Positions 42,640 through 55,007 of a DNA stretch of 64,000 bases are shown here, one piece after another. The stretch spans positions 372,001-436,000 of the forward strand of contig NZ_PTJD01000001.1 in assembly GCF_002934625.1 (NCBI RefSeq), in the 5' to 3' direction. The notes beneath the pieces are model-generated. The model did no database searches and was not told where the DNA came from. It saw only the letters and a program-made list of their open reading frames with translations. Origin of the DNA: Kineococcus xinjiangensis. Its GTDB lineage: Bacteria > Actinomycetota > Actinomycetes > Actinomycetales > Kineococcaceae. A program made the position numbers and the translations under genes. The stretch's first letter is position 1. The number at the start of each line of letters is the position of its first letter.

Positions 42640-43578
42640 TCAGTCCAGGTCCGAGTCACCGGCGCGCAGGATCTTCACCTGCGCGAGGGCGACGCCCGCG
42701 AGGATCACGAACAGCACCACGCACAGGGCCGCCGCGTACCCGAAGTCGAACTGCTGGAACGCCTTCTCGTAGATGTAGTAGTAGATGACGCGGGTCGAGT
42801 CGATCGGCCCGCCCTTGGTGGTGACGGCCACGGTGTCGAAGATCTGGAAGGACCCGATGACCGTCAGCACGAGCACCAGCACGAGCACCGGCCGCAGCAG
42901 CGGCATCGTGATGCGCCAGAAGATCCGCCACTCGGAGGCGCCGTCGATCGCCGCGGCCTCGTAGACGGAGGACGGGATGGACTGCAGCCCGGCGAAGATC
43001 AGCAGCGCGGTGTAGCCCATGTGCCGCCACACGTTGACCAGGGCGATGGTGGGGATGGCGGTCGAGGTCTCACCGAAGAACGCCACCGGGTCGAGCCCCA
43101 CGAGCTCCAGGCCGCTGTTCACGATCCCGAGTTGCGCGTCGAGCATCGTGTACCAGACGAGCGCGACGACCACGTTGGCCACCAGGTAGGGAAGCAGCAG
43201 CACGCCGCGGATCAGCGTCGACTTCGTGAGCCGGTGCATCAGCACCGCCAGCGCGAGGGCGACCACCGTCTGCACGCCGATGTTGATGACGACGTACTCG
43301 AGGGTGACCGTCAGCGACTTCCAGAACCTGCGGTCACCGAGGACCTCGGCGTAGTTCTGGACCCCCACCCACTCCGGGGGCGCCAGCAGGCTGTAGTCGG
43401 TGAAGCTGAGGTAGAAGGTCCGCAGCGCCGGCCAGGCGTAGAAGGTGACGAACCCGAACGCGGCGGGCAGCAGGAACAGGAGGGCGGGCACCAGGTCCTG
43501 GCGGGAGCGGCCGGCGCGCAGCCGGGCGGCCGGGCGCTCGGTGGCGGACGGCTGCTGGGGGGCGACGGCGACGCTCAC
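42640..43578 (-). CDS. Sugar ABC permease, MalF type
   Basis: CUT1-family permease of 312 residues with six helices. The EAA loop is SVYEAAAIDGASEWRIFWRITMPLL. The N-terminus begins QDLVPALLFLLPAAFGFVTFYAWPALRTFYLSF, as usual for this class. The GTG start overlaps the alpha-galactosidase stop (GTGA), so expression is coupled to it. No ATPase gene is present in the operon; actinobacterial CUT1 systems commonly share one MsiK ATPase. Confidence 0.92.
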   Translation of the reverse strand: MSVAVAPQQPSATERPAARLRAGRSRQDLVPALLFLLPAAFGFVTFYAWPALRTFYLSFTDYSLLAPPEWVGVQNYAEVLGDRRFWKSLTVTLEYVVINIGVQTVVALALAVLMHRLTKSTLIRGVLLLPYLVANVVVALVWYTMLDAQLGIVNSGLELVGLDPVAFFGETSTAIPTIALVNVWRHMGYTALLIFAGLQSIPSSVYEAAAIDGASEWRIFWRITMPLLRPVLVLVLVLTVIGSFQIFDTVAVTTKGGPIDSTRVIYYYIYEKAFQQFDFGYAAALCVVLFVILAGVALAQVKILRAGDSDLD

Positions 43579-45821
43579 GGACGGGGCTCCCTCGTGACGT
43601 GCAGCAGGAGCGTGTGCTCGGGGTGCTGCGGGGGGACCTGGACGCCGACGCGGGAGAGCACCCGCCCCGGCAGGGAGGCTCCCTCGGCGAGCCAGGGCAC
43701 CTGGACGATCGCCGTCGACGGCGGCACCCCGGCGGGACCGGCGACCCGGACCCGGTAGCGCGCGTCCGGGTCGAGGCCGGGCAGGCAGAGCCGCCCCGGC
43801 GTCGTCGTGACGCAGGTGGCCGTCGAGACGACGGCGAAGAGCGCCTGGGAGCCGTCGGCGGCGAGGACGCCGTGGACGTCGGTGGCGGCGCCGGCCGGGT
43901 CCGCGCGCACCACGCGGCCGGTGTGCAGCCAGTCGCGGACGCTCTTGTAGAGGGCCACCCACTGCCGCAGCTCGCGACGCTCGTCCTCGTCGGCCGCGGT
44001 GAGGTCCCACTCGATGCCGAAGCTGCCGAAGAGGGCGGTGGCGGCGCGGAAGGACAGGTCGTGGCGGCGGCCGGTGGTGTGGGACCGGCCGGCGCCGACG
44101 TGCGAGCCGATCATCTCCGGGGGCAGCAGCAGGCCGGTCCAGCGCTGGACCGACTGCCGCTCCAGCGCGTCGATGCAGTCGCTGGCCCAGACGCGGTCCG
44201 TGCGCTGCAGGATGCCGAGGTCGACCCGCGCCCCTCCGGAGGAGCAGGACTCGACCTCCAGGCGCGGGTGGCGGCGGCGCAGCTCGTCGAGCAGGCGGTA
44301 GACCGCCAGGGTCTGCCGGTGGACCGCCGCGACCCCCGTGCGCGAGGAGCCGGCGTCCACGAGGTCGCGGTTGTGGTCCCACTTGAGGTAGTCGAGGGCG
44401 TACTCGCTCACGAGGGCGTCGAGGCGTCCGAGGACGTGCGCGAAGGCCTCGTCGCGGGTGAGGTCGAGGACCTGCTGGGAACGCACGAGCGGCGGCGTGC
44501 GGGAGCCGGTGGAGAGGATCCAGTCCGGGTGACGGCGGATCAGCTCGGAGTCGGGGTTGACCATCTCCGGCTCGACCCAGAGCCCCATGCGCATGCCGCG
44601 GGAGCGGACGTGCTGCACGAGCGGGTGGAGGCCGTGCGGCCAGACCCGCTCGTCGGCGAACCAGTCGCCGAGCCCGGCGGTGTCGTCGCGACGTCCGCGG
44701 AACCAGCCGTCGTCCAGCACGAACAGCTCGGCGCCGACCTCGGCCCCGCGGTCGGCGAGCGCCGTGAGCCGGTCCAGGTCGTGGTCGAAGTAGACGGCCT
44801 CCCAGGTGTTCATCACGACCGGCCGGGGCCGGCGGGGGTGGTGGGAGCGGGCGCGCAGGTGCGCGTGGAAGCGCGCCGACATCTCGTCCAGGCCCTCGCC
44901 GCAGGAGGCGTAGACCCAGGGGGTGGTGTAGCTCTCCCCCGGGCCCAGCGCGACCTCGCCGGAGAGCAGCAGCTCCCCGCCGCCGATGACCGCCTCACCG
45001 GTGGGCAGCCGCTCGGCGTAGGTGCGGTGGTTGCCGCTCCAGCCGACGTGCAGGCCCCACACCCGCCCGCTGCGGAAGCCGAAGCCCTCCTCCCCCGCGA
45101 CGAGGACGAGGGTGGCGTCGGAGCCGGTGCGCCCGCGGCGGCTGTCGCGGACGTGGGCGTCGACGCCGAACGGCCTGCGCTGCGGGGAGCGCTCCCGCCC
45201 CCAGCGCCCCGTGAGGTCGAGGACCTCGGTGGCGGAGCCGGGCAGCGGGAGGGCCAGGACGAGCCCGTCGAGCCGGTAGGGCGTGCGGCCGCCACCTCGC
45301 ACGGCGGCGTCGGTGAGGGTCGCGCGCATCCGCAGCAGCCCCTCCGCCGTGAGCTCGAGCAGCAGGTCCAGCTCGAGGAGGGCGTCGGGGTCGACCGCCT
45401 CGACCCGCAGGCGGCCGCCGGTGGCGTCCTCCGCGCGGCTGGCGGTGACGGAGACCGTCACGAAGGAGGGCGACCAGTCCCGGCCGTCGCGCGAGCCCAG
45501 CAGGCCCGGCAGCCCCGCCCAGCCGGCGGCGTGCTCCGGCAGGACGGTGACGGGCAGCGGCTCGTCGAGGCCGTTGGGCACGACCGGCGGGGCGGAGACG
45601 GCGGCGAGGGCGGCGAGGTCGTCGGCGCCCAGGTCACCGAGGTCGGCGCCCCAGTGCAGCACGCGGGGCAGCCTCGCGCCGCGGCAGTCGACGACCAGGC
45701 TGACGCCGGCGGCACTGAGGTGGACCACGCTGCCGGCCGCGCCGAGCTCCCCGTCGGTGCTGCGGGGCGCCACCGAGCCGGCGGGCACGTCGCCGGTCCT
45801 TCGGGCGGGTGCGGTGGTCAC
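43575..45821 (-). CDS. Alpha-galactosidase, family GH36
   Basis: A 748-residue GH36 enzyme that removes terminal alpha-galactose from oligosaccharides such as raffinose, melibiose or galactomannan fragments. An N-terminal beta-supersandwich is followed by the TIM barrel: NTWEAVYFDHD, FVLDDGWFRGRRDD, GLWVEPEMVNPDSEL. Nucleophile Asp482 lies in YLKWDHNRDL and acid/base Asp548 in VWASDCIDALERQ. There is no signal peptide, so it should act in the cytosol on imported sugar. The start is GTG with GGAGGAG upstream. It is the first gene of the operon, facing the LacI gene across the operator region. Confidence 0.94.
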   Translation of the reverse strand: MTTAPARRTGDVPAGSVAPRSTDGELGAAGSVVHLSAAGVSLVVDCRGARLPRVLHWGADLGDLGADDLAALAAVSAPPVVPNGLDEPLPVTVLPEHAAGWAGLPGLLGSRDGRDWSPSFVTVSVTASRAEDATGGRLRVEAVDPDALLELDLLLELTAEGLLRMRATLTDAAVRGGGRTPYRLDGLVLALPLPGSATEVLDLTGRWGRERSPQRRPFGVDAHVRDSRRGRTGSDATLVLVAGEEGFGFRSGRVWGLHVGWSGNHRTYAERLPTGEAVIGGGELLLSGEVALGPGESYTTPWVYASCGEGLDEMSARFHAHLRARSHHPRRPRPVVMNTWEAVYFDHDLDRLTALADRGAEVGAELFVLDDGWFRGRRDDTAGLGDWFADERVWPHGLHPLVQHVRSRGMRMGLWVEPEMVNPDSELIRRHPDWILSTGSRTPPLVRSQQVLDLTRDEAFAHVLGRLDALVSEYALDYLKWDHNRDLVDAGSSRTGVAAVHRQTLAVYRLLDELRRRHPRLEVESCSSGGARVDLGILQRTDRVWASDCIDALERQSVQRWTGLLLPPEMIGSHVGAGRSHTTGRRHDLSFRAATALFGSFGIEWDLTAADEDERRELRQWVALYKSVRDWLHTGRVVRADPAGAATDVHGVLAADGSQALFAVVSTATCVTTTPGRLCLPGLDPDARYRVRVAGPAGVPPSTAIVQVPWLAEGASLPGRVLSRVGVQVPPQHPEHTLLLHVTREPRP

Positions 45822-45867
45822 GGGGCTCCTCCAGGGCGGGAAGGGTGCGACGCCCGGAGAGAGCGCC

Positions 45868-45898
45868 ATTGATCGTTCCATGGAATTGAACGTTCCAT
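45868..45898 (-). promoter_or_regulatory. Two LacI-type operator repeats upstream of the galactoside operon
   Basis: On the minus strand ATGGAACGTTCAAT (45898-45885) and ATGGAACGATCAAT (45881-45868) differ at one base and are spaced 17 bases apart. Each has the near-palindromic TGGAACG-centred form of LacI-family operators. They lie 47-77 bases before the GH36 start. Two more AGTTCCAG half-like copies occur at 45931-45948, toward the divergent lacI gene. The promoter hexamers themselves were not identified with confidence. Confidence 0.65.
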
Positions 45899-46098
45899 GA
45901 GAGTGCCATCGGTCCGGGCCGCCGTCAACGAGTTCCAGCAAGTTCCAGGCGGCACATTTACCGATCAACGGAACTCGTGGCGGACAGGGTCGAAGACGCC
46001 GGACTCCGCAGCCCCGGGGCTAGCATCGGAGCCCCGGCACCGGCCGGGCTGCGCACGGGCGAGGACGCCGGCGCGGCAGGACGAGCGGAGGCGGCGCA

Positions 46099-47139
46099 GT
46101 GCCCGAGACCCGGACTCCCGCAAGGACGCCCCGCCGCAGCGGCCGCGTCAGCATCGTGGACGTCGCGGCCGCCGCCGGGGTCTCGCGCCAGACGGTGTCC
46201 AACGTCCTCAACGGGCGCAAGGAGTACTACTCCGAGGACACCCACTCGCGGGTCATCGCCGCCATGGACTCCCTCGGGTACCAGCCGAACCGGGCCGCGC
46301 AGAGCCTGCGGTCGCAGCGCAGCATGCAGATCGGCTGGCACATCTTCGGCGAGCAGTTGCAGGCCATGCGCGGCTTCACCCTGCAGTTCCTCCAGGCGCT
46401 GGTGAAGGCCACCTCCGACGTCGACCACCACCTCGTGGTGTTCACCCACCACGACGACGATGCGCTGCAGGTGTTCAAGGACCTCGTGGCCCGGCGCACC
46501 GTGGACGCGGTGATCCTGTCCGAGTCCGGCGTGGACGACGAGCGCGCCCGCTTCCTCGCCGAGCACGGGCTGCCCTTCGCCTCCTTCGGCCGGCTCGCCC
46601 CGGACCTGCCCCAGCACTGGGTCGACATCGACAACGCCGCGGGCATGCACCCCCTCGTCGACCACCTCGTCTCCGCCGGGCACCGCCAGTTCGCCTACAT
46701 CGGCGCCGAGGGGGGCGAGTTCTGGAAGGCGGAGCGCCTCGAGGGCTTCCGGACGGCCCTGGCCGAGCACGGCCTGCGCGTCCCCGCGAACGCCGTCCTG
46801 CACGGCGACGACGCCGCGGTCCGCGCACACACCCGCCGCCTGCTGGCGCGCCGCAACCGCCCCACCGCCATCGTCGCCGGCAACGACGCGATCGCCGCCG
46901 TGGTCGTCAACGTGGTGCACTCCGTCGGCCTGCGCGCCGGCCGGGACGTCGCCGTGACCGGCTTCGACGGGGGCGCCATCGGCCTGTTCACCGAACCGAC
47001 GCTCACCAGCGTCCGGATACCCGTCGAGCGCATCGCGCGGGAGCTCGTGGACCGCTGCCTCCGGCAGGTGCGCGACGGGGCCGTGGACGGCCCCGGCCTG
47101 CTGGTCCCCACGGAGATCGTCCGCGGCGGCAGCGCCTGA
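46099..47139 (+). CDS. LacI-family transcriptional repressor of the galactoside operon
   Basis: A 346-residue regulator. The N-terminal helix-turn-helix reads VSIVDVAAAAGVSRQTVSNVLNGRKEYYSEDTHSRVIAAMDSLGYQPN with the minor-groove hinge helix RAAQSLRSQRS. The rest is a periplasmic-binding-protein-like sensor (residues about 75-346), with PTAIVAGNDAIAAVVV and VAVTGFDGGAIGLFTEPTLTSVRIP. The recognition helix SRQTVSNVLNG is typical. GTG start, GGAGG upstream. It is divergent from the GH36/ABC operon, so it is the likely repressor, released by a galactoside or galactose. Confidence 0.93.
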   Translation: MPETRTPARTPRRSGRVSIVDVAAAAGVSRQTVSNVLNGRKEYYSEDTHSRVIAAMDSLGYQPNRAAQSLRSQRSMQIGWHIFGEQLQAMRGFTLQFLQALVKATSDVDHHLVVFTHHDDDALQVFKDLVARRTVDAVILSESGVDDERARFLAEHGLPFASFGRLAPDLPQHWVDIDNAAGMHPLVDHLVSAGHRQFAYIGAEGGEFWKAERLEGFRTALAEHGLRVPANAVLHGDDAAVRAHTRRLLARRNRPTAIVAGNDAIAAVVVNVVHSVGLRAGRDVAVTGFDGGAIGLFTEPTLTSVRIPVERIARELVDRCLRQVRDGAVDGPGLLVPTEIVRGGSA

Positions 47140-49812: not shown

Positions 49813-50658
49813 TCACGGCAGCGCCAGCAGGACGACCGCGGCGAGGGCCACGGCCAGGCCGGCCAACTGCGCGCCGCGGAGGCGCTCGCCGAGCACGCCC
49901 CGGGCGAGGAGCACCGTGGCCGCCGGGTAGAGCGCGACGACGACCGCCACGACCGCGAGGTCGCCCAGGCGCGCGGCCACGAGGAACGCCGCGTTGGCGA
50001 GCGCGTCCAGGAGCCCGGCGAACGCGGCCAGCGCCGCCGCACCGCCCGCCAGACGGGCACCCCGGGCGGCGCGGGGAGCCAGCAGCAACGCGGTGAGCAG
50101 CAGCAGCGCCGCCACCGTCCTGCCGACCAGCAGGGGCGCCGCCCCGCTGTCGTCGGGAGCGGAGTCGAGGCAGACGAACTGCACCGCGATCGCCAGGCCC
50201 GCCGCGAGCCCCGTGCCGAGGGCCGCGCGGCTCGGGCGCGTCGGGGCCTCGGCGGGGGCCGCGCTGACGAGCACGACCGCCAGGAGCGCCGCGACGATCC
50301 CCGCCACCCCCAGGGCCGTCAGCCGCTCCCCCAGGAACAGCCCCACCGCCACCGGCAGGGCCGCGGAGACGGCCGCGGTCAGCGGCGACAGGACGCTCAT
50401 GGGCCCGAGCGCCAGGCAGCGGTACAGGAGGACGAACGTGGCGGCGGCGGCGACCCCGGAGGCCGCGCCCCACGCGAGCGTCGCCGCGTCGAACCCGGCG
50501 CCGAGGACGGGCAGCAGCACGACGACGCCGGCGAGGCTGGCCGGCCCGGCGACCGCACCGACCCGCAGCAGGGAGGCCCGCCGCGCCGCGAGGCCGCCGG
50601 CGAAGTCCGCGCAGCCGTAGGCGAGGGAACTCACCAGCGCCAGGAGCACAGCGGTCAC
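49813..50658 (-). CDS. EamA/DMT-family transporter
   Basis: A 281-residue membrane protein with about ten helices arranged as two EamA repeats, the drug/metabolite transporter fold. The first helix has SSLAYGCADFAGGLAARR, common in this subgroup, and the sixth to tenth helices mirror the first half (GERLTALGVAGIVAALLAVVLV versus [22 protein letters not shown]). The substrate cannot be told. The start is GTG with GGGAG upstream. It is encoded 52 bases after the start side of the GGDEF/EAL gene's stop, on the same strand. Confidence 0.85.
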   Translation of the reverse strand: MTAVLLALVSSLAYGCADFAGGLAARRASLLRVGAVAGPASLAGVVVLLPVLGAGFDAATLAWGAASGVAAAATFVLLYRCLALGPMSVLSPLTAAVSAALPVAVGLFLGERLTALGVAGIVAALLAVVLVSAAPAEAPTRPSRAALGTGLAAGLAIAVQFVCLDSAPDDSGAAPLLVGRTVAALLLLTALLLAPRAARGARLAGGAAALAAFAGLLDALANAAFLVAARLGDLAVVAVVVALYPAATVLLARGVLGERLRGAQLAGLAVALAAVVLLALP

Positions 50659-50710: not shown

Positions 50711-53700
50711 TCAGGCCATGCCGTGCGCGGCGTGCTCCCGCGCCGAGAGGTCGAGGACCCGCCGGAAGTCGGCGAGCGCCATGGGGCGACCGAGGTGGTA
50801 GCCCTGCCCGTAGTCGCAGCCCGCCGTCACCAGGCGCTGCCGCTGCTCCGTGCGCTCCACGCCCTCCGCGACGACGGCGTGGCCCAGGGCGTGGGCGAGG
50901 TCGATGACCGAGTGGACGATCTCCCGGTCCTGCCCCGCCGAGTCGATGTCCCGGACGAAGCTGCGGTCCAGCTTCACCTCGTCGACGGGCAGCTGCTGCA
51001 ACCACTGCAGGGAGGACCAGCCGGTTCCGAAGTCGTCGAGGGCGAGGGAGACCCCGAGCGCGTGCAGCCTGCCCAGGACGTCCCGCGTGCGGCGGAGGTC
51101 CCCGAGGACCTGGTTCTCGGTGATCTCCACCCCCAGCCGCCGGGGGTCCAGGCCGCTGTCCCCGACGGCGCGGCGGACCCGTTCGAGGAGCAGCGGGTCG
51201 GCGAGCTGCCGCGCCGCGAGGTTCACCTGGACGACCGGGGCCACGCCGCCCTGCGCCGGCCAGGTGGTCGCGTCGAGGCAGGCCCGCCGCAGCACCCACT
51301 CGCCGATGTCGACGATGAGGTTGGACTCCTCCGCCACGTCGAGGAAGTCCCCCGGGTGCAGCAGCCCGCGGGTCGGGTGGCGCCAGCGCAGCAGCGCCTC
51401 CACGGCCGCGATCACGCCGGTGCGCAGGTCCACCTTCGGCTGGTAGTGCAGCTCCAGCGTCCCGTCGTGCAGGGCCTGGTGCAGGCCGCTCTCCACCCCG
51501 ACGCGGCGGGTGATCTCCCGCTGCAGCGCCGCGTCGAAGACCGCCACGGACCCCTTGCCCTGCCGCTTCGCCAGGTACAGCGCGGAGTCCGCCTCCCGCA
51601 GCATCTCCTCGGCCGTGGCGGGCGGGCCGGTGGCGACCGTGATCCCGACGGACAGCTTCACGAACAGCTCGCTGTCGTCGACGAGGTAGCGGCCGGTGCA
51701 CTCCGCGAGGATGCGACGGGCGACGGCGGCGACGTCGTGGGCGGTGCCGACGTCGGTGCACACGATGACGAACTCGTCCCCGGCGAAGCGGGCGACGAGG
51801 TCCTCCGGCCGCAGCGCGTGCCGCAGCCGCTGGGCGAGCTGGCGCAGGAGCTCGTCACCGGCGGCGTGACCGAGGTGGTCGTTGATCCACTTGAAGTCGT
51901 CGAGGTCGCAGAACATCACCGCCACCGGCGCACCGTGGCGCGCCAGGCGCGCGACGGCCGCCTCGAGCATCTCCTGCAGCATCCGCCGGTTCGGCAGCCC
52001 GGTGAGCGGGTCGTGCATCACCTCGTGGGCGAGCACCTCCTCCACCCGCTCGCGCTCCTGCACCTGCGTGCGCAGCTCCTCGTTGGCCTCGGCCAGCTCG
52101 GCGTTGGCTCGTGCGAGCTCGGCGGTGCGCTCCTCCACCCGCTCCGCCAGCTCCTGGCGGTGGCGACGGGAGCGCTCCAGCAGCAGCGCCGTCTCCAGTC
52201 CGGTGGACAGGTGGCGGGCGAGCGACTGGTAGAGCCAGCCGCTGCGCGGGCCGGGGGTGAGGAGGAGGTGGCCGAGGTGGTGGCCGTTGAACTGCAGGGG
52301 CAGCAGCACGAGGGGCGCGGTGCCGACGGACTCCCAGCGGGCGGGGGGCAGCAGGCCGGCGGCGTCGAAGGCCCGGTCGGCCTCCGTGAGGAGGGTGCCA
52401 CGGCCCCGCTCGTAGGCGAGGAGGAGGCTCGCGCCGGGGGGCGCGGCCTCCTCGGCCACCGCGCCCGGCCCCTCGGGGCCCGGGCGGTAGGTGACGAGGT
52501 AGAGGGTGGACAGCCCGAGACGGGGCAGCTGCTCGGTGAGGACCCGCACCAGCTCCTCCACGGAGCCGGCGGTGACGAGCCGGTTCCCCACGTCCTGCAG
52601 GACGTGGCCCTGCCGTTCGGTGACCTGCTGGATCCCGAGCCAGCGCTGCTCCGCCTCGCCGAGCGCCCGCAGCGCGCCGGGGACGCGCACGGCGGCCGTG
52701 CGCAGCAGGGACAGCAGCTCCATCCACGGCACCGGCGCCTCACCGAGCCGGCCGCAGAGGTCGACGAGCCGGCGGAGGCTGGCCTCCAGGAACCGGCCGT
52801 CGTCCTGGTCGGCCCGGCGCAGGCCGATGACGACCTCCTCCGCCCAGCGGTCGCCGAGGTCGTCGCCGCGGCTGCCGGCGGCGGAGCGCAGGACCGCGGC
52901 GACGGTGGCGTCGTCGTCGGCGAGGGAGATGGCCGGAGGCGGGCAGCCGCAGGAGCGGCGGTGGAGGACCTCGCAGTCCAGCACCGTCTCGGCGGGGACC
53001 TCCCGGCCGTCCGCGAGCTCCGCCAGCAGCTCGACACCGCGGGCCTCCATGGCGCGGAAGGGCAGCCGGGCGGTCGTCAGCAGCACGTTCGCCCGTGCCG
53101 CGCTGAGGGTGGTGGGGTCGGCGGCGTCCCCGAGGCCGAAGAAGGCCGGGTCGACGTAGTCGTCGAAGCCGGTGACCGCCACGTCCTGCGGCACCCGCAG
53201 TCCCATCGCCCGCGCGGCCGAGACGACCGCGAGGGCGAGGTTGTCGTTGGCGGCCATGACGGCGTCCACCGCGGGCCCCGGCGCGGTCAGCAACGACCTC
53301 ACCTGCAGCCGCACGGCCGCCTGCCCGGGGTCCCAGCCGGGCAGCAGGGCGCCCACGAGCTGCTGGTCGCGGGGGATGCCGTGGGCGCGCAGCGCATCGA
53401 GGTAGCCCTGGTAGCGCAGCGCGGCGCCGCGGTGCGTGGCCGGGCCGCGCAGGTACGCGATGCGGCGGCGGCCGTGGACGGTGATGAGGTGCTCGGCCAT
53501 CTGCCGGCTGGCCCCCCGCTCGTCCATGGCGACGCCGATGGCGCCGGGCAGCGGGTCCTCGGCGCTCACCACGGGGTGCCCGCCGAGCGTGCGGGCCCAG
53601 CGCCGCACCGCCTCCTGGCCGCACTGACCCTGCAGCAGCGCGGTCCACACGAGGTAGCCGTCGACGGGTGCCACCTCGGGGAAGCGTGCCGCGAACGGCG

Positions 53701-53911
53701 CCGGGCGGTCGGAGTCCGCTCCTCCGGCCGCCGCACGCACGAGGTCGGTGCCGACGACGGTCAGGAGGCCCACGTCGAGCCGCTTGGCCGCGTCCTGCGA
53801 CCCGAGCCAGTGCTCCTGGTGGATGTTGACCTGGAGCGCGGAGGTCAGGACCGCGAAGCGGCGCCCTCTCGGGGACTTCCGCTGCGACGCGCCCGCCCCG
53901 TCCGAGGCCAT
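50711..53911 (-). CDS. Cytosolic LacI-type sensor fused to GGDEF and EAL domains
   Basis: A 1066-residue one-protein c-di-GMP switch. Residues 17-315 resemble the ligand-binding domain of LacI/GalR regulators (EHLITVHGRRRIAYLRG, AVMAANDNLALAVV, VPQDVAVTGFDDYVDPAFF) without a helix-turn-helix or signal peptide. A Cys motif RRSCGCPP (318-325) follows, then a helical/GAF-like region (about 430-570) and a coiled coil (580-628). The GGDEF domain (630-795) has RFAGDEF in place of GGDEF. The EAL domain (810-1055) keeps EALLRW, NLAARQ, EITEN, DDFGTGWSSL, KLDRSF and AEGVE, so phosphodiesterase activity is likely. Start ATG, leaderless type. Confidence 0.9.
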   Translation of the reverse strand: MASDGAGASQRKSPRGRRFAVLTSALQVNIHQEHWLGSQDAAKRLDVGLLTVVGTDLVRAAAGGADSDRPAPFAARFPEVAPVDGYLVWTALLQGQCGQEAVRRWARTLGGHPVVSAEDPLPGAIGVAMDERGASRQMAEHLITVHGRRRIAYLRGPATHRGAALRYQGYLDALRAHGIPRDQQLVGALLPGWDPGQAAVRLQVRSLLTAPGPAVDAVMAANDNLALAVVSAARAMGLRVPQDVAVTGFDDYVDPAFFGLGDAADPTTLSAARANVLLTTARLPFRAMEARGVELLAELADGREVPAETVLDCEVLHRRSCGCPPPAISLADDDATVAAVLRSAAGSRGDDLGDRWAEEVVIGLRRADQDDGRFLEASLRRLVDLCGRLGEAPVPWMELLSLLRTAAVRVPGALRALGEAEQRWLGIQQVTERQGHVLQDVGNRLVTAGSVEELVRVLTEQLPRLGLSTLYLVTYRPGPEGPGAVAEEAAPPGASLLLAYERGRGTLLTEADRAFDAAGLLPPARWESVGTAPLVLLPLQFNGHHLGHLLLTPGPRSGWLYQSLARHLSTGLETALLLERSRRHRQELAERVEERTAELARANAELAEANEELRTQVQERERVEEVLAHEVMHDPLTGLPNRRMLQEMLEAAVARLARHGAPVAVMFCDLDDFKWINDHLGHAAGDELLRQLAQRLRHALRPEDLVARFAGDEFVIVCTDVGTAHDVAAVARRILAECTGRYLVDDSELFVKLSVGITVATGPPATAEEMLREADSALYLAKRQGKGSVAVFDAALQREITRRVGVESGLHQALHDGTLELHYQPKVDLRTGVIAAVEALLRWRHPTRGLLHPGDFLDVAEESNLIVDIGEWVLRRACLDATTWPAQGGVAPVVQVNLAARQLADPLLLERVRRAVGDSGLDPRRLGVEITENQVLGDLRRTRDVLGRLHALGVSLALDDFGTGWSSLQWLQQLPVDEVKLDRSFVRDIDSAGQDREIVHSVIDLAHALGHAVVAEGVERTEQRQRLVTAGCDYGQGYHLGRPMALADFRRVLDLSAREHAAHGMA

Positions 53912-53993: not shown

Positions 53994-55007
53994 GTGAGCG
54001 ACGGCGCAGCGCAGCGGATCCCCGGGCCCCCCTCCCCGTGGCCCACCAGGCCCCTCGGCGCCACCGGGCTGGAGGTCTCGACGTTCGGGTTCGGGGCGGG
54101 TCCCCTCGGCGGCCTCTTCGACGAGGTCGGCGAGGAGGAGGCGCAGGCGGCCCTGGAGGCGGCCTGGGCCGCGGGAGTGCGGTTCTTCGACGTCGCACCC
54201 CACTACGGCGCCGGACTCGCCGAGCGGCGCCTCGGCGCCTTCCTCGCCGGGAAGCCCCGCGAGGAGTTCGTCGTGGCGACCAAGGTGGGGCGCCTCCTCG
54301 TCGACGACGCGGACCTCGACACGGCCGCGGAGCAGGAGGGTTTCCGCGGCGGCCTGGCCAAGCGCCGCGTGCGCGACTACTCCGCGGACGGCGTGCGGCG
54401 CAGCCTCTCCGACAGCCTGGAACGACTCGGCCTGGACCGGGTCGACGTCGTCTTCGTCCACGACCCGCACGACTACGAGCGGGAGGCCACCACCACGGCC
54501 CTGCCGGAACTGGCGCGGTTGCGGGACGAGGGCGTGGTCACCGCCATCGGCGCGGGCGTCGACGACCTGGGCATGCAGGCCCGATTCGTGCGCACCGGCC
54601 TCGTCGACGTGCTCCTCGTCCCCGGTCGCTGGACCCTCCTCGACCGCAGCGCCGGCGCCGAACTGCTGCCGCTGTGCCTCGAGCGCGGCGTCTCCGTCGT
54701 CGTCGGCGGCGCCCTGAACTCCGGGATCCTCGCCGATCCCTCCCCCGGCGCCCGCTTCGACTACGCCCCGGCTCCCGAGCAGGTGCTCGCTCTCGCCCGG
54801 CGGCAGCAGGACGTCTGCGGGCGCCACGGCTGCTCGCTGCTGCAGGCGGCGCTGCAGTTCCCGCTGCGCCACCCCGCCGTGGTCGGCGTGCTGGTGGGCC
54901 TGCGCAGCCCGGCGGAGGCGCGCGCCGCCGCGGCCGACCTCGCCTCCCCGGTCCCCGTGCGGTGCTGGGAGGAACTGGAGCTCCTGGCGCTGCCCGTGCG
55001 GCCGTGA
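53994..55007 (+). CDS. Aldo/keto reductase (aldose/fucose dehydrogenase-like)
   Basis: A 337-residue NAD(P)-dependent oxidoreductase with a TIM-barrel AKR fold. The catalytic tetrad is visible: Asp and Tyr in FFDVAPHYGAGLAERRLG, Lys in FVVATKVGRLL, and His in DVVFVHDPHDYE. The motif set resembles D-threo-aldose/L-fucose 1-dehydrogenases, which oxidise sugars such as fucose or arabinose. The GTG start lies seven bases after TAGGGT without an RBS. It is divergent from the c-di-GMP protein whose sensor may bind sugars; a functional link is only a guess. Confidence 0.87.
   Translation: MSDGAAQRIPGPPSPWPTRPLGATGLEVSTFGFGAGPLGGLFDEVGEEEAQAALEAAWAAGVRFFDVAPHYGAGLAERRLGAFLAGKPREEFVVATKVGRLLVDDADLDTAAEQEGFRGGLAKRRVRDYSADGVRRSLSDSLERLGLDRVDVVFVHDPHDYEREATTTALPELARLRDEGVVTAIGAGVDDLGMQARFVRTGLVDVLLVPGRWTLLDRSAGAELLPLCLERGVSVVVGGALNSGILADPSPGARFDYAPAPEQVLALARRQQDVCGRHGCSLLQAALQFPLRHPAVVGVLVGLRSPAEARAAAADLASPVPVRCWEELELLALPVRP

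Follow-up and report, generated by a model that had tools for sequence, protein, structure and literature searches.

The window analysed, a 64,000-nucleotide stretch of the Kineococcus xinjiangensis genome, contains on its minus strand a gene (50711..53911) that runs from an ATG at 53911 to a stop at 50711, exactly the extent given in a preliminary description of this DNA. The encoded 1066-residue protein consists, in order, of a LacI-type sensor, a CxC motif, a helical linker, a GAF domain, a coiled coil, a GGDEF domain and an EAL domain (coordinates of all features within the gene refer to the minus strand). The codon-position GC content of 0.80/0.49/0.97 (GC3 0.97) follows the pattern of a real gene in a GC-rich genome. 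The frame stays open for 51 codons 5' of the ATG; an extension would run into the start of the divergent gene, and homologous sensors start near the same point as the ATG. A Pfam search of the protein, of the kind previously proposed, located Peripla_BP_3 at residues 141-321 (E 3e-21), GGDEF at 632-786 (E 3e-48) and EAL at 810-1043 (E 3e-72), all well beyond cut-off. This confirms that a LacI-like pocket is joined to GGDEF and EAL in one chain. All parts listed in the preliminary description were recovered, but the GAF domain at residues ~425-582 had been left out.

No LacI helix-turn-helix (PF00356) was found in the longest open frame, the 51 upstream codons included. As a positive comparison, the LacI repressor encoded elsewhere in the window (46099-47136) does match this profile. 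Neither a signal peptide nor a transmembrane helix is indicated, as the maximal 19-residue hydropathy of the whole protein is 1.28, and residues 1-60 contain no hydrophobic N-terminal segment, signal peptide or lipobox (maximal 19-residue hydropathy 0.76). The earlier statements that the protein has no DNA-binding domain and no export signal thus stand. The lack of a helix-turn-helix rules out a LacI/GalR transcription factor, and an exported substrate-binding protein was rejected for want of a signal peptide or lipobox. Together, these data support a soluble, cytosolic, one-component protein in which a LacI-type pocket is wired to both GGDEF and EAL.

An EamA/DMT-type transporter gene (49813..50658, minus strand) lies 52 bp downstream of the sensor gene, and the shared strand and short spacing mean that both are perhaps part of one operon. 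On the other side, an aldo/keto reductase gene (53994..55007, plus strand) points away from the sensor gene, with 82 bp between it and the sensor start codon. This had been described as a divergent sugar-type oxidoreductase; while the orientation is correct, the product is a generic aldo/keto reductase that did not reach the cut-off of any named NCBIfam family. A galactosidase cluster, in which a GH36 alpha-galactosidase (43578-45968) is grouped with an ABC permease and the above LacI repressor, is indeed located a few kb away (~5 kb). Its value as a hint to the ligand is weakened, as it has its own repressor and five unrelated genes intervene: a peptidase, a GrpB-like gene (named by eye from sequence), a nucleotidyltransferase, a response regulator and the EamA gene. 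On these grounds the cluster was rejected as a partner of the sensor. The surroundings of a paralogue present in the same genome differ, and no ligand hint is common to the two neighbourhoods. Promoter and terminator scans found none.

The LacI/GalR-type ligand-binding domain spans residues 16-323 (52943..53866; Pfam PF13377/PF00532). An AlphaFold model of residues 1-626 built with 19 homologous sensors (mean pLDDT 78.8) predicts this domain with confidence, and comparison using Foldseek and VIA-align revealed that residues 16-323 match CcpA, LacI, PurR, RbsR and CelR with Z-scores of 20-23. Peripla_BP_3/Peripla_BP_1 profile matches and a type I periplasmic-binding fold therefore coincide in this domain. 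The preliminary description would have fallen had residues 17-315 adopted another fold; the model instead bears it out. Alignment to a reconstructed LacI ancestor shows that R166, N222 and D250 line up with LacI R197, N246 and D274, which we take to be inducer contacts. Across 20 aligned sensors with a mean identity of 30%, D223 is invariant and R166 almost so. Conservation at this level of divergence suggests ongoing selection on the cleft and hence its continued use, whatever the ligand. On the basis of the fold and a few pocket positions, a sugar or a similar metabolite is the most likely putative ligand. An insertion of ~20 residues follows the GFDD motif in the sensor alignment (~residues 252-277; 53081..53158). 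It is common to the paralogue, missing in other sensors and disordered in the model (pLDDT <50 at 257-274).

Pfam assigns nothing to the ~230 residues that separate the LacI-type domain from the coiled coil. The first part of this region forms a helical linker (residues 324-424; 52640..52942), for which the confidence of the AlphaFold model is low. A separate AlphaFold2 model of residues 405-626 (mean pLDDT 87.5) contains a GAF fold at residues ~425-582 (52166..52639). In structure comparison, the GAF domain of the diguanylate cyclase Lcd1 ranked first (Z 11.4), followed by GAF domains or GAF-containing proteins with nearly tied scores. No Pfam GAF model scored below E 0.5 on residues 405-626; Pfam GAF_2 does score at the corresponding position of the homologue L062. 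A 68-residue signalling helix (residues 558-625; 52037..52240) connects the GAF to the GGDEF domain in the model, in agreement with the coiled coil described previously.

The presence of a GAF domain between sensor and coiled coil makes two inputs possible, and on the basis of the models the protein may read one through each domain. LacI-type domains dimerise, and it could be argued that the LacI-type domain has ceased to bind ligand and instead mediates dimerisation or protein interactions, leaving the GAF as the working sensor. The insertion after GFDD would be in keeping with such a loss, and the Lcd1 GAF, nearest among the closely tied matches, binds cAMP. However, the conservation of R166 and D223 among such divergent sensors speaks against a disused cleft, and we regard this explanation as very doubtful. 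A LacI-type domain that still binds its ligand is the reading we prefer.

The GGDEF domain (residues 632-786; 51554..52018) carries an AGDEF active-site motif at residues 710-714 (51770..51784), as first described, and an RxxD allosteric I-site (R701-D704; 51800..51811) five residues before it. The domain retains D669, N677, D686, D712, E713 and K782, which we take to correspond to the metal, guanine and catalytic positions of PleD. The metal, GTP and catalytic residues of a diguanylate cyclase are thus in place, the first Gly of the motif being replaced by Ala. K786 replaces an Arg (PleD R446), a mild and conservative change. The EAL domain (residues 810-1043; 50783..51484) was reported to be intact, and indeed all eight catalytic residues checked are kept (E838, N897, E929, D959, D960, K980, E1016 and Q1036), as expected of a phosphodiesterase. 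Loop 6 reads DDFGTGW, where Tyr is the usual residue; this is likewise a mild change.

The degenerate first Gly had led to the suggestion that the GGDEF half is regulatory rather than catalytic. AG(D/E)EF motifs occur in ~1.6% of GGDEF domains, and Vibrio cholerae VCA0965, which has both AGDEF and RxxD, makes c-di-GMP in vitro (Hunter and colleagues, PMC3974145). Since the domain retains its metal, guanine and I-site residues and VCA0965 is active, that suggestion is weakened and a purely regulatory GGDEF is not the default reading. Judged by its residues, the GGDEF half is probably competent as a cyclase. In some proteins a degenerate GGDEF domain activates EAL, and the off-consensus motif, rare as it is, could point to a dead GGDEF acting as a GTP-binding activator. 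The protein would then be a ligand- and GTP-gated phosphodiesterase; among known proteins, FimX is classed as GTP-responsive (PMC8846402). This scenario has to accommodate a domain that retains D712 and E713 along with its I-site and its metal and guanine residues, the in vitro activity of VCA0965 and the intact GGDEF of the paralogue, and we consider it unlikely, though less so than the other rival explanations. MorA and MucR are membrane proteins. Together with DosP, these GGDEF-EAL proteins (4rnh for MorA, 5m3c for MucR) provide the nearest solved structures to the enzyme half, but all three carry sensors other than a LacI-type domain.

The paralogue (L039:7000-10221, contig C10), which is 51% identical over 4-1044, was overlooked in the preliminary description, as was the reuse of the sensor with other outputs. 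It shares domain order, CxC, GAF-like region, GGDEF and EAL with the window protein, but has an intact GGDEF, no RxxD I-site and S in place of N222. Its LacI-type domain contains a His/Asp/Gly-rich insertion, DHFDLDHFDGGHLDGGRFECG, the insertion of the window protein being shorter. The two proteins pair with full support on a tree of LacI-type domains, and no further match at the level of the paralogue was found in 11 family-mate genomes or 394 class-level sample genomes. Using a cassette profile, the full LacI-type plus GAF-like cassette is rare in Actinomycetota, occurring in 3 of 296 genomes: the present one, with two copies, and two genomes from a second genus (g73) in which the output is of the kinase-AraC type. 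This kinase-AraC design is also present in named Streptomyces.

A survey of the architecture across genomes had been proposed, and we used the sensor alignment to scan 84,980 species genomes and examined the best 80 loci by local searches and Pfam. The cassette recurs in other phyla with varied outputs: among these 80 loci, LacI-type sensors devoid of a helix-turn-helix are joined to GGDEF, GGDEF-EAL, histidine kinase (HK), HK-REC-AraC, AraC, SpoIIE or STAS. A Polyangiaceae protein (L055:5743-8244) carries the same sensor type with a SpoIIE phosphatase domain, slightly under the Pfam cut-off, and an Anaerolineae protein (L052:5911-8721) carries it with a STAS domain. Matches on Aureimonas and Rhizobium plasmids were rejected as further fusions, these being separate adjoining genes where annotation is given.

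A tree was computed for 61 LacI-type domains (33 fused sensors and 28 plain ones), a set picked by similarity to the window sensor. The distinction between fused sensors without a helix-turn-helix and plain repressors requires 2 label changes on this tree, compared with a mean of 20.4 and a lowest value of 14 in 200 shuffles, while output types require 7 (shuffles: mean 14.3, lowest 10). The fork dividing fused sensors from plain repressors has a support of 90/92. Given this support and the similarity-drawn set, the tree describes one main lineage in this sample rather than all LacI-type fusions. Within the sample, it speaks for fused sensors that are largely of one lineage and have exchanged their outputs. 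A single clade of GGDEF-bearing fusions is rejected at the border only (p-AU 0.047). The pattern of label changes and the variety of outputs are as would be expected of a portable input module.

The LacI-type domain ends in an RRSCGC motif (residues 318-323; 52943..52960), identified from sensor alignments and containing the SCGC pointed out previously (320-323); it represents the LacI-type end motif (R-x-S) plus CxC. Both Cys residues are invariant in 20/20 aligned sensors. In the 61-domain set, CxC is found in 32/33 fused sensors versus 9/28 plain LacI-type repressors, the patterns of the genome scan having contained no CxC. As an observation in its own right, nearly every fused sensor, across several phyla, has CxC at the end of its LacI-type domain. 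The invariance of the pair and its association with fusion could reflect a redox or metal switch in the linker, such that the protein would read redox or metal cues in addition to a ligand. However, some plain repressors without an output domain also end in CxC, and a Deinococcus fusion lacks it. Furthermore, the tree contains only two independent contrasts between fused and plain domains, so the association is inseparable from shared descent, which would account for it as well as function does. We therefore regard a switch as improbable. A broader proposal, in which LacI-type domain, CxC and GAF-like region form a portable cytosolic cassette passed between phyla, with CxC as a redox or metal gate and c-di-GMP answering to ligand plus a second cue, has in our view a similarly small chance of being correct.

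The Deinococcus fusion, the EAL domain-containing protein WP_015231178.1 of Deinococcus peraridilitoris (plasmid pDEIPE01, 1013 aa), combines LacI-type domain, GGDEF and EAL and, like the window protein, keeps the catalytic residues and RxxD. It differs in the lack of CxC, in a GAF-like region undetected by sequence and in a sensor placed elsewhere on the tree. LacI-type-GGDEF proteins of Lachnospiraceae, Ruminococcus, Erysipelotrichaceae and Spirochaetaceae (L070, L074, L085, L091, L120, L071) also lack a helix-turn-helix and have CxC before GGDEF, but unlike the window protein they are shorter and without EAL. Among the nearest cassettes are LacI-type-GAF-HK-REC-AraC proteins of Streptomyces and Anaerolineae (L047, L048, L054, L057, L063-L065), which contain both RRSCGC and a GAF-like region; where the window protein has c-di-GMP enzymes, they have a histidine kinase-like part and an AraC DNA-binding domain as output. 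Two Oscillospiraceae proteins (L080:5650-9564 and L083:5773-9588) join a LacI-type sensor to a degenerate GGDEF and EAL, followed by an additional C-terminal ~390 residues without Pfam match that are Gly-rich, strand-like and, by eye, beta-helix-like.

We consider it probable that the window protein is a cytosolic one-component c-di-GMP regulator, in which a small molecule in the LacI-type cleft shifts the balance of synthesis and hydrolysis via linker, GAF and coiled coil. The ligand, for which a sugar or a similar metabolite is the best candidate, would bind the cleft, and closure of the cleft would be passed on through the CxC-bearing linker to the GAF domain, which may bind a second ligand of its own. 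The signal would then enter the long, presumably dimeric coiled coil ahead of the enzyme domains and shift the balance between c-di-GMP synthesis by the AGDEF domain and hydrolysis by EAL. A competent cyclase would be restrained by its I-site, and we lean slightly towards the EAL side as the one that sets the net output. Points against this mechanism are the paralogue, with neither an I-site nor N222, the poor modelling of linker 324-424, the two mild substitutions in the enzyme half (K786 and the Trp of loop 6) and gene neighbourhoods of the two copies that suggest no common ligand.

The LacI-like Periplas_BP domain is listed among putative GGDEF/EAL sensors without an experimentally validated role in a 2022 review (PMC8846402). 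The combination of such a domain with GGDEF and/or EAL in one protein is thus already known as a class, to which the window protein belongs. A literature search with subscription papers mostly outside its reach found no study of a LacI-GGDEF fusion. It has seldom been demonstrated that a c-di-GMP enzyme senses a cytosolic metabolite directly. The window protein, which is soluble, has a well-folded pocket and keeps its EAL residues, provides a practical test case. Even one ligand identified here could shed light on the related cassettes that are joined to kinases and AraC regulators in Streptomyces, Chloroflexota and Myxococcota.

The 4.6 Mb genome encodes ~93 GGDEF and 57 EAL domains versus 3 PilZ domains, and the window protein therefore shares the cell with many other c-di-GMP enzymes. 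The c-di-GMP repertoire of this actinobacterial genome is unusually large.
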